Below, piece after piece: positions 2,573 through 42,828 of a DNA stretch of 64,000 nucleotides (its first letter is position 1; each line of letters begins with the position of its first letter). The notes under the pieces were generated by a model. The model searched no databases and was not told the origin of the DNA. It was given only the letters and a program-made list of their open reading frames with translations. Source of the DNA: Sordaria brevicollis (Eukaryota > Ascomycota > Sordariomycetes > Sordariales > Sordariaceae); NCBI GenBank assembly GCA_033439795.1, contig JAUTDP010000010.1:1116001-1180000 (forward strand). The letters run 5' to 3'. A program made the position numbers and the translations under genes.

Positions 2573-4374
2573 TGCGATTGGGGTTTGTCGGGAGGGGTGG
2601 GTTTTCGCCTCCGGAAAGAATTAAAGTTTGGATCTTGAACGGTAATTGAAAAAACAAGTTCGTGATCGGATTGAATAGTGGTGAATGGAATTAAAGAAGT
2701 TTGGTGTTGTCGGGAGAGTTTCGTTCTGGTGGGCAGATCAAGCAGATGACGTGGGAAGTGTTTCGAAGGGGGTGTGACAAGGATATGGGAGAGCCCTGAA
2801 GATGCAAGCACTCAAACCATTCGACCAACCGTTGGGCCGCTCTTTGCTGGCTGGGGCTTGGGGTTCAGTTGTTCGCAAGTCGGATTGCCGGAAGCGATCC
2901 AGTCGCATGAGGGGGTGGCCCATTATTGTGGGGCTGGGCCTCTTGCATTTGACGTTGAGGACCTTGACGAGCACTCATAGCCAAACTGTCATTGTCAACC
3001 GCCGTAGATGACACCAGCTCCACCTCCATTGGCCAGACTTGATATCTTGAGCCTTGGCAGGCTTCAACGCCAACAACAGGATGACGATGGTGAAGATTAC
3101 GAGGACGGCCAAACTCTGTGCTTTGGACATTTTCAAGCCACCATCAGAGGGATTTTCTGTAGCTTGTTATGTTGTTCAGGTTGGTCATTCTTCAACATCT
3201 TACCGATCTTAACAGGCGGACCCTGAGGTTGCTCAACTCACATGCCAATGCCATAGAGGCACAGCTAGCAAGGGCAGACAAGTAAGTATCTGCATGCGTA
3301 ATACATACAGATGTCGAGATTTCAAGCAGCATACCAAGCGTCAGTGTTGGATGATGTTCACGTCGGTTTTGGTACCTTTGAGGTTGTCCTGGACACGTTC
3401 CCTGCAACTTATTGTCTCCATCGCGTTGACTGGGTGTGTCACTGCATTTACGTTCCGTACTTGATCAAATGTGTGATCGTTTTACTGTTAGTGGCATTCG
3501 TTTGGCGGGTGGCTTTCAGCGAAACATAAACACGGCATTCACAGGAAGATTTATTATCTCAGGCTTGCTCTTTACTTCCGTATCTTTGCTGTGAAAGCGA
3601 TATGGCGAAGCAATGACTGAAGCCTACAATTTCCAGACATGGACATATCTAACGAGGAGAAGGAAGGTTTGACTGAAGCAAGATTCACCGTCGATGTCAG
3701 ATATCGCAAACGACCAATTGTCATCATACTTGGTTTCCTTAGTTGTTTCATAGATATCACTTTATAGTATGTCCCTATTTTCCTCTAGACCGCTATTTTG
3801 ACCTATAGATCTAGGCCTTTCTTCATCAAACACAACATGGGCATGACAACGCGACATAAAACAGTCCAACACAAGGTCACGGTACATCACGGCAACGAGA
3901 GATGGTAGGACGCGTGTCGTAGATTCTCGTAGATTCGTGCCGGAACAGTGTCCTCCCTATAGCCCGTCCACTGCGCTAGGCATGGAAACACCCAAGCAAT
4001 CCGCATCGCGGCTTGTCGAATGCCATCCGCCCATGGCACGTCAGTCGGGGCAAACATGAAATATGTGCCTTTTCCCGCTATCCTCCCACGCAGGCTAGCC
4101 TGCCTGAACATCAAGACAATGGCAGGAAACGCGCGCAAAGATCGAGAAAGACGAAGATGATGCAAGATATCCGGACCCCAAAAACGCCGTCCCAATTTTT
4201 GTTGATGTTGCGCGAGGTAAATCTTCTGGTGAATCCATCTTCTGTCCGCAACGAGATTGATTGACGATCGAGTATGATATTTCTATGCGCCCGACTGGCT
4301 GAAGCCTTGCAGATTCCAAGATGTCCCCATTACCACGCCGTTATGCTGAAGAAAAGAACCGATCCTCGAACCGT
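2573..4374. other. intergenic region with only weak coding candidates
   Basis: About 1.8 kb between two minus-strand genes. Several short open frames look slightly protein-like but none is convincing: a plus-strand frame from 3008 with an acidic QQQDDDGEDYEDG stretch, a plus frame from 3311 with one hydrophobic segment, and minus-strand frames between 2840 and 3130 (one listed separately). The last part, next to 4374, should contain the 3' UTR of the ribosomal protein gene. Confidence 0.5.
2975..3130 (-). CDS. possible 51-residue hydrophobic micro-ORF
   Basis: An ATG-started frame of 51 codons. Residues 5-25 form a strong hydrophobic helix (SLAVLVIFTIVILLLALKP) followed by AKAQD, which looks like a signal peptide or signal anchor. 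The tail is short and rich in Trp and Arg. Nothing known is recognised. A chance frame or the first exon of a longer gene are real alternatives, and there is no independent evidence of expression. Confidence 0.22.
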   Translation of the reverse strand: MSKAQSLAVLVIFTIVILLLALKPAKAQDIKSGQWRWSWCHLRRLTMTVWL

Positions 4375-39046: not shown

Positions 39047-39049
39047 TTA
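39047..39049 (+). repeat. left TTA target-site duplication
   Basis: TTA directly before the left inverted repeat, matched by TTA at 42826-42828 after the right one. A 3-bp TTA duplication is the hallmark of PIF/Harbinger insertion. Confidence 0.8.
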
Positions 39050-39085
39050 GGGTGCGTTCGTGTGTCTGGGAAATGCCTTTCTGAA
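39050..39085 (+). repeat. left terminal inverted repeat of the Harbinger element
   Basis: Thirty-six bases beginning GGGTGCGTTCGTGTGTCTGG. They are perfectly inverted at 42790-42825. Many TpG steps remain unmutated, in contrast with the interior. Confidence 0.92.
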
Positions 39086-39849
39086 TGGTTTAGAAGCTAG
39101 ATTTTAGAAGTCTATTCGAATGCCTAGGAACTATTCTACCGCGGAAATCCCACTAAAACTGGCTTCTGAAATTTCTAACCCACTTAAAGACCTCCTAGCC
39201 AATTAGATAATAGTATTCTTTATGAAAATTCTATAAACCACTTCCATAATTCAAAGCTGCGGAAATTCCTTTTTGAAATCGATATTTATTATTTTCTAAA
39301 CTACGTAATTACCTTCGTTATAATTATTAATACCAATATACCCTCCCTTCGAATTACTCTAATACTTTTATAACGCCGCCAACGTTGTAAATTACGTAGA
39401 AGGGTATTATAAATAGTAATTATTACCTTAATAATTTCCCTTATGTATTAAAACCCTCGTATATTTATAAATCTATACGGGTTATGGAGGGTCTTTATTA
39501 TTAAAGACTTCCTTTATAGGTATTCGGGTCGTTTTGGAGATTTAATATATATAGCGCTCTAAACCTTTTACATTATAATATAATAATTAATTAATTATAT
39601 TATATTATTTAATTCTCGAAACGTATTTACTTATAAGAAAGTATTAATATTTATATTTATAATTAATTAAGGGATAATTTTAAAATTGGCGAATTGGATA
39701 ATAGGCTATAGTTTGGATACTATATATAAATTAATTAAATAGATAATTTTTTTTACAAAACTTAATTTATTATATTAAAATATTATATAAATAAAGCTTT
39801 TTATAAAGTTTTAAATATTTATTTTATCCTTACCTATTATAAAATTCAA

Positions 39850-40440
39850 CCTTTTAATTTTATAACCCTATGTATTATTACGGGTAATTCTAAATTATAA
39901 GAATTTAAAAAAGTATTAGGCATTTTTAACGGTTCGCACTTTTTAATTAAAATACCCGTAAATTAATAAAAATTATAGTATAATAAGAAGGGGGGGTTAT
40001 CGATTAACGTATTAATCGCTTATACCCTCGAAGGTAAATTAACCTTCGTAATACTTAATTAAGAAGGTTTAGCTAACGATATACGGATTTTAAATAACGC
40101 TTTTAATTAAAAATTTAAAATCTTATCCGGTTAGTTTTATTTTACTAATATTAAGTATAATTATAGTAATAGATTATTTATATTATATCGAAGTATTCGA
40201 TATTATTTAAAGGAGAGCGAAAGGGTAGGGTTTAGACCGGCTATTTTCGAAGAGTTATACAATTTTCGTTATAATTAAACCCGTATTATTATTGAAAAAT
40301 AAATTAATAGGTTAAAGGGGACTTTTAAAATTTATTATATTACCCCTAATTTCGATATTTCGGTATAGAATAAAATTATTTTAACGACGGCGGGTATTTT
40401 AAATTAATTATTCTAATATAACGACCTTTTTAACGTATTT
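39850..40440 (+). pseudogene. PIF/Harbinger DDE transposase, inactivated by RIP
   Basis: A single reading frame (first codon bases at positions equal to 1 modulo 3) can be followed with no indel, interrupted only by TAA/TAG codons at places where Trp or Gln is expected. It matches the HARBI1/DDE_Tnp_4 order: a GxxDGTH-like block now reading GIFNGSHF (39919-39942), a KGGLSINVL block, EGLANDIRIL (WEGSAxDxRVL in relatives), a DAGY-like block now NIKY (40147-40158), YRSIRYYLKE, then RP...EELYNFRY, the IIIEK block (ER in relatives, 40285-40299), and a TPxxD...LHN-like end. Both catalytic Asp codons have become Asn (39928 and 40147), while the Glu codon at 40294 survives. It is certainly non-functional. 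Confidence 0.85.
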
Positions 40441-41955
40441 CGAACGGTTGTAAATAAGGAAGAGGTTTTAATGCTTAAAGAGGTAATAGTAATCGAAAAG
40501 GAATTAATAAGTAATATTAATTTGGTTTATAAAGGAAAGGGAGGGGGGAATAACTTTACCTAAATTAAATTCGATAACGGAATAAAGGAATATATAATAT
40601 AATACTATAAACGTATTATAAAGAAGATGTAAAGGGGTTATTGTAATAAATTACGTAAAAGAGGGGAGGTGTAAATATATAAAGTTGAATAAAGGAGGAG
40701 GAGGGAGGAGGAAGGAGGAGGAGGGGAAACGTATTATATATCTAAACTACCTCTTAAATCGACTAAATCCGTCAAAATAATAATAATTTATATAATAACC
40801 TAAATAATAACCTAGATAATAATCTAAAATATATACTAAAGTATTAGAGTACTAGAGTACTAGAGTATTAGAATATTAGAATATAAATAATTGAATATAA
40901 ATGCTAGAATATTATACCTTCGATTTCAAAATATTTTAAATTTTAAATAAATAAATTTAATATATTAAATTACACTAACGCGGTCTTAACTCCTACTATA
41001 CCGTACGGATTAAAATTGCAATATCATTTTCAATATTTATATTACTTATAAAATTATATTAAAATTAATACCGATTAAATAAATCGATTTAACTCAATTT
41101 AACGATTATAACGGTATAATTTTTATATATATATAATTTTTTTTAGTAGTAATGTAAAATATTAAAAAAATATATTAAATCGATAAAATAAAAAAAATCC
41201 GGGGTCGCTCTATATCCCACTCCCGTTCTTATATAAGAATTATTAAATTGCCCCGTTAATAACGTTGAAATATAGCGCTCTTTTAATATTATTATAGGGT
41301 AGGGTCGATTAGTAAATTTAATAAAGGTTCAAATCCTATATTTTTATCCCTTTCCCTTTTAATCCTCTTTTTTACTTTTTTAAAATAATATTCCTTTTTT
41401 TTCTATAATATCCTTATAAATACATTGGCTTTAACTTTAGAAAATTATTATTTAGTAAAAATAACCTCAATTACATCGTTATCGACCTTATTTTCCTATT
41501 CCCGATTAAAGATATTAAACGCTTTATTTAATTACTCCCCCCCCGCTTTTTTTTCTTCGATAATTACCCTTTCGACGCGGTTGTGGTTATTTTCCTTTAT
41601 TAATGTAATCGTTAAATTCTTTAAATTCTCCGCAATAATTTTATTATTATTCTTCCTCTTCTTTTTTTTCGGATTTTAATTATTAGCGGCCGATTTCTTT
41701 AAATTACTATCCTTTATATAAGCGGGGATAGGGATATTATCATTATTTTTATTAGTTAATAAATTTAAAGGGGGATTTATATATTATACTTCCTAAATTA
41801 ATAGTAATTAGCTTAAAGTTATTATATACTCCCTAATAACTTTTTAATTATTAATAAAGGCCTATTCTATTAATTTACAATACGGGAGACCCTATTTACG
41901 AAATTAGCCGACTTCTTTATAAGCTTATTATATTTAATTAATTTGCCTATAATAT
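40441..41955. other. AT-rich interior of the Harbinger element, not resolved
   Basis: This stretch contains purine-rich GGAGGAGG patches (about 40690-40730) and no reliable frame. The 84-codon plus-strand frame at 41425-41679 is a by-product of AT-richness. It probably includes the transposase C-terminus, the space between the two genes and the 3' part of the Myb-like gene. Confidence 0.5.
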
Positions 41956-41959
41956 ATTA

Positions 41960-42200
41960 ATACTAATATAATATTATATATTAACTTTAATTATCCATTC
42001 CTAAATATTATCTTTTATAATTAGTATACTAGTATTAAAATCGAAACCGAACCTAAATAACGATTTAAAGGTATATTAAGCGCATTATTTTTTCTTTAAA
42101 TAATCAACTTTATTATATATTTATTAATTATTAAGAATAATATTAAATTCGTTATGTATATTATCGATAAATTTAATATATACCTATTCTTTATACCTAT
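41960..42200 (-). pseudogene. Myb/SANT-like DNA-binding domain relic of the Harbinger element
   Basis: One minus-strand frame, broken only by stop codons explicable by RIP, reads KVDYLKKK, then GFGFDFNTSI, then an ...EWIIKVN segment. This matches the order (K)NKxDxLKKxY - SGFGWDxxTxxVTA - DEVWxxYIKAHP of the Myb/SANT-like domain found in the second ORF of PIF/Harbinger elements and in many fungal relatives. That protein normally carries the transposase to the nucleus and to the element ends. The orientation opposite to the transposase is as expected. Mutation density limits certainty. Confidence 0.6.
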
Positions 42201-42789
42201 TCTAATTAATCAAACCAAATTCAATAACTTTCCCGAATTTAATTAAAAAATAAATTTCTTAAATTAGGGTCTATATCCAATTCTTCTTCTTATTAAAGGG
42301 GGTAATCGAAATCTTTTTACCTTTACTTTTACTATAGCTAATCGTTTAAAAAGGTTAATTAAATTAGGTAGAAGTCGGTTAATTTAATTAAATTATTTAA
42401 GAATTTAACGAGAACGATTAAATTTAAAAACCTAAAATCTAGGATTCACTTCTAATCGATTCCTAAATTTAGCTATTATCCATTTTAGTATAAAAATAAA
42501 GGAATTACGTTAAAGGAACGATAAAAGATAAAAAGAAGGCGGATGTAATTGAGGGAGGGAAGAAATAAGCGACGATAATATTAAAGATAACTATTTATTT
42601 ACTTTGTAAATGCCAATATTACGGGATTGCTAAGAAAATCTTCATTTCTATGACTTTTTAGAATTCTGAATATACGAATAGGCTTTTGAAATCAGGTTTC
42701 TGAACCGAAATTCGAGACCCCACATTTATCGGAATTTGCCGCTAAAAACGGTTTAGGAAAGGCCAATGCGTTCCTCATAAAACGTTCTT

Positions 42790-42825
42790 TTCAGAAAGGC
42801 ATTTCCCAGACACACGAACGCACCC
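42790..42825 (-). repeat. right terminal inverted repeat of the Harbinger element
   Basis: Exact reverse complement of 39050-39085, ending ACGAACGCACCC and followed by TTA. Confidence 0.92.
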
Positions 42826-42828
42826 TTA

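Follow-up and report, generated by a model that had tools for sequence, protein, structure and literature searches.

A PIF/Harbinger-type transposon with RIP-mutated large copies and unmutated miniatures in Sordaria brevicollis

The window analysed here is a stretch of 64,000 nucleotides from Sordaria brevicollis (assembly GCA_033439795.1, contig JAUTDP010000010.1, positions 1,116,001 to 1,180,000 of the forward strand). It contains an AT-rich block of 3776 bp, whose G+C content is 25%; that of the 300-bp flanks is 51% and 55%. The protein of the window's EMC1 gene has 94% identity to those of Copromyces sp. CBS 386.78 and Neurospora sp. IMI 360204 and 93% to that of Sordaria sp., with the following match at 71%, which places the host within or beside the Sordariaceae. 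Coniochaeta, to which a partly de-RIPped rDNA alignment had seemed to point, reaches 62–63% and is rejected on this ground. The features of the block are listed below in window coordinates.

39047..39049, no strand: left copy of the TTA target-site duplication, read from the sequence
39050..42825, plus strand: whole PIF/Harbinger element of subfamily A, 3776 bp, with a RIP-saturated interior
39050..39085, plus strand: left terminal inverted repeat, 36 bp, based on end pairing and on identical ends of other copies
39277..41265, plus strand: ORF1, the transposase frame, open except for TAA and TAG (stops read as Q; start and end provisional, introns possible)
39931..40404, plus strand: DDE_Tnp_4 (PF13359) domain within ORF1, whose match in the genome sequence includes 3 TAG and 6 TAA codons
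41097..42209, minus strand: ORF2, the second frame, convergent with ORF1; about 296 residues are conserved from one subfamily to the other, and Pfam gives no match
42790..42825, minus strand: right terminal inverted repeat, 36 bp, based on end pairing
42826..42828, no strand: right copy of the TTA target-site duplication, read from the sequence

The terminal inverted repeats begin with GGGTGCGTTCG and are complementary at 36 of 36 nucleotides. The repeat finder reports a longer pair, of 40 nt, at 98%. An earlier note on this DNA had described 36-bp perfect inverted ends, a TTA duplication and an AT-rich 3.8-kb block, and all three descriptions hold. A 28-bp pattern of the ends, allowing up to 3 mismatches, matches twice in the window, whereas 100 shuffled sequences give a mean of 0. 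Across the genome (53 Mb) the pattern matches 16 times, as eight convergent pairs, and the reversed control gives 0. A chance inverted repeat is thereby ruled out. Each 600-bp flank has a single genome match, which is itself. The flanks are therefore single-copy, which rules out the possibility, foreseen by the same note, that the ends belong to a larger repeat. Viral contigs contain 0 exact matches to the end pattern, as expected for a fungal element. The 11-mer GGGTGCGTTCG also occurs in one paper, on mushroom mycelium.

With its stops read through, ORF1 matches PF13359 at an E-value of 8.4e-12 and 45.4 bits (Pfam cut-off 24.8). DDE_Tnp_4 is the domain carried by PIF/Harbinger transposases. 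TAA and TAG were read as residues in all PF13359 matching of RIP-damaged frames. The domain is found at E ≤ 0.001 in all six copies or pieces scanned (five of subfamily A and one of subfamily B, described below). In the genome search, the window copy on C2, the copies on C23 and C12, and a B copy on C1 score above the cut-off. The putative catalytic triad is RIP-damaged; its three positions are acidic in 0/6, 3/6 and 1/6 copies. The triad of PIF/Harbinger transposases has 47–48 residues before its last acidic residue. In the ORF1 alignment, where the triad was placed by its presumed motif, 48 residues lie between columns 291 and 340.

The second frame, ORF2, is matched by no family in the Pfam scan, so that the usual Myb/SANT partner is not demonstrated. 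Based on the architecture of related families, ORF2 is presumed to encode a DNA-binding, Myb/SANT-like helper. Comparison of subfamilies A and B suggests that both frames once coded for proteins. The third codon position holds 11 of the 16 transversions in ORF2 (p = 0.004) and 15 of the 30 in ORF1 (p = 0.043). The comparison used one B copy, over the ranges where that copy stays in frame, and the ORF1 value is weak because these ranges were chosen after a first look at the data. The two opposed genes of the earlier note thus stand as convergent frames, one on the plus strand and one from 42,209 to 41,097 on the minus strand, but neither is intact, as both contain many in-frame TAA and TAG codons. 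Likewise, its term "structurally complete" applies to the architecture only, both frames being broken by RIP-type stops. Between the two frames, at 40,834–40,881, is a short array of 8-bp tandem repeats resembling TACTAGAG.

The read-through alignments yielded nothing at E ≤ 0.001, either for ORF1 against 5843 candidate proteins or for ORF2 among the 7993 candidates sharing most words, and PDB profile searches with the frames gave 0 matches. The protein search requires exact 5-residue words, and the missing relatives are therefore not evidence of absence; RIP-damaged queries are poor probes. Single-sequence folds were too poor for use, with a mean pLDDT of 42 for ORF2 and 31 for the other fold.

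The eight end pairs in the genome correspond to five large copies of subfamily A and three miniatures of 372 bp. The large copies are on C2 (the window), C23, C12, C7 and C26, and those on C7 and C26 are each split by an LTR element. The nested LTR retrotransposons are 7278 and 5528 bp long, with LTR matches of 265 and 178 bp, respectively, and are likewise RIPped. A sister subfamily, B, has the ends GGGTGCGTTCGGCAATCTG and four large copies, approximately 81% identical to the window element. Two of these, both on C1, are uninterrupted (3746 and 3745 bp, each 81% to the window element), while the other two are split, over 30 kb on C5 and over 21 kb on C12. Listed with subfamily B are three miniatures of 312 bp. 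The 312-bp miniature aligns to positions 1–232 (81%) and 3701–3776 (84%) of the window element. It thus seems to have arisen from B by internal deletion. In the 372-bp miniature, the shared sequence amounts to about 84 bp at one end and 37 bp at the opposite one, and its interior is accounted for by neither subfamily. Both miniatures are short, present in three copies each, and have the ends and duplication length of the coding element, as is characteristic of Tourist-like MITEs. With five A copies, four B copies and six miniatures, the element is clearly not the only copy in the genome, so that the lack of any other copy, which the earlier note had named as refuting its proposal, is excluded. 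Further fragments are seen at 65–85% identity. The 19-mer AGGTGCGGTCGACTGTCTG is repeated identically at many genome sites and seems to be a marker of an unrelated repeat.

Genome-wide, at least 33 DDE_Tnp_4 matches were listed, all of them carrying in-frame stops; this number is a lower bound, because the C7 and C26 copies of the same family were missed. No intact transposase was seen among the matches listed, and one could still lie outside them. Many of the listed matches are other Harbinger-like families.

Perfect 3-bp duplications flank 13 of the 15 insertions, including five of the six miniature insertions. Their sequences are TTA (six), TAA (two), CAA (two), TTG, TGA and CCA (one each), so TTA or TAA accounts for eight of 13 and five differ. 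The two imperfect pairs are TTA/TAA at the C26 copy and TTA/TTT at one C7 miniature. All 13 perfect duplications fit YNR, a pattern spotted post hoc. The several copies with the same ends, the TTA-type 3-bp duplications and the PF13359 score over the cut-off support the assignment to PIF/Harbinger that the note had proposed.

The large copies have decayed almost exclusively by transitions, which make up 97–100% of the differences in every compared pair of A copies or pieces. Among the uninterrupted A pairs, the extremes are 438 transitions to 5 transversions and 462 to 14. CpA is scarce among invariant C/G columns (25/445). Transition-only decay and loss of CpA/TpG in repeats identify these copies as RIP targets. 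RIP was discovered in Sordariaceae. Retention was measured in four of the nine known large copies as the share of CA+TG in CA+TG+TA. It is 0.08–0.10 in the interiors versus 0.79 in the remaining window. At the edges it is 0.7–1.0 in the outer 60 bp and 0.25–0.90 at 61–120 bp. For the nested LTR elements, the values over 60 bp are 0.67 and 0.81 at the left edges and 0.25 and 0.31 at the right edges. The 372- and 312-bp miniatures are un-RIPped. In the part of the literature consulted, RIP is stated to require duplications longer than 400 bp (PMC4188875). The start of C1 (about 5831–102197) contains rDNA-like units that repeat in tandem every 9.6 kb or so and are also RIPped; the G+C content of the eight units read is 0.20–0.25.

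The block at 39,050–42,825 is thus best explained, with a probability of about 0.9, as a full-length member of a PIF/Harbinger family that split into subfamilies, gave rise to miniatures, and had its large copies mutated later by RIP. The DDE transposase encoded by ORF1, probably with the ORF2 protein, would have bound the 36-bp ends, excised the element and inserted it at TTA-like sites of 3 bp. Divergence into subfamilies A and B would have followed, and two miniature families would have arisen. Later RIP would have mutated the large copies and broken both genes, while the miniatures, below the approximately 400 bp said to be needed for RIP, remained unmutated, perhaps owing to their length.

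The order of events could also have been different. Copies damaged by early RIP, with their ends intact, might have been mobilized in trans, in which case the present copies inherited shared RIP mutations. The ends of the A copies would permit this: among the ten, including the two of the reference, six are identical to the reference over 36 bp and four have 1–2 RIP-type changes. The C7 and C26 copies are also closer to each other (89.4%) than the other long pairs are (86–88%). However, the long pairs differ by about 11–13% transitions and 0.03–0.37% transversions, as would be expected if nearly identical copies had been RIPped independently. Mobilization after early RIP is considered quite improbable. 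Shared changes at CpA sites are uninformative on inherited RIP because these sites are saturated. Preservation of the ends could be ascribed to selection for mobility instead of a weakness of RIP at repeat edges, as the outer 60 bp are so well retained relative to the interiors in the four large copies measured. The nested LTR elements are a mixed control here, their left edges being spared too and their right edges not, and no intact transposase that could exert such selection was seen among the DDE_Tnp_4 matches listed. Selection on the ends is therefore considered unlikely; since the left LTR edges are also spared, a weakness of RIP at repeat edges is the simpler explanation, although unproven.

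A Tc1/mariner identity for the element is very improbable. Guest of Neurospora crassa, a close relative of the present host, is a short inverted-repeat element, as are the Sordaria miniatures, and comes from the same fungal family. If the element were akin to Guest, the TTA could be a TA duplication plus one base. Rasmussen et al. 2004 (cited in PMC2851567) call Guest a Tc1/mariner element in their title, and on that account it is not regarded as a relative, being set apart by title and not by sequence. As to the Sordaria element itself, PF13359 is the sole transposase domain found, and TA is absent from five of the 13 perfect duplications (CAA, CAA, TTG, TGA and CCA). These two facts reject a Tc1/mariner identity.

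An apparent PIF/Harbinger family with its own MITEs is thereby added to Sordariaceae. It provides a natural length series within one family, RIP-saturated copies of 3.7 kb versus un-RIPped derivatives of 312 and 372 bp, together with a measurable edge gradient, so that the limits of RIP in repeat length and at repeat edges become testable in nature. It can be speculated, tentatively, that the sparing of the outer 60–120 bp and of derivatives below approximately 400 bp maintains, in a RIP-heavy genome, a lasting reservoir of dead copies with competent ends and of intact miniatures. If a transposase were to arrive, it could mobilize this reservoir at relaxed YNR sites, and miniaturization might then be a real escape route from RIP, not a side effect.

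No description of this family was found in the parts consulted of the literature on Harbinger-type elements and related fungi. In the main text of the N. crassa pangenome paper, the words Harbinger, PIF, MITE and Tourist occur 0 times. Among fungi, PHISTA elements of rust fungi are likewise classed with Harbinger, but they have TA duplications and a TET/JBP gene, in contrast to the 3-bp duplications of the Sordaria element, whose scanned frames contain no TET/JBP match (PMC12730594).

The consulted sections on rice mJing/Jing describe a comparable relaxation of the target site. There, about 67% of the 3-bp duplications are TAA/TTA, and the others are one or two bases off (PMC6850418). The mJing ends, GGCTGCGTTCG, resemble the Sordaria ends, GGGTGCGTTCG, and in both cases miniatures accompany a larger coding relative. 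However, mJing/Jing is a plant element with 11-bp ends, whereas the Sordaria element has 36-bp ends and large copies killed by RIP (PMC6850418).

Insertion of canonical Harbinger elements duplicates 3 bp, and Nuwa elements have genes for a transposase and a Myb/SANT protein (PMC12730594). In the Sordaria element, by contrast, no Myb/SANT domain was detected in ORF2. With canonical PIF/Harbinger and with the Nuwa lineage of the PHIS superfamily, it shares the DDE_Tnp_4 transposase, the 3-bp duplications and the two genes (PMC12730594). The element and its Tourist-like MITEs thus seem to form a new PIF/Harbinger family, which belongs to a known superfamily and is not a new kind of system.
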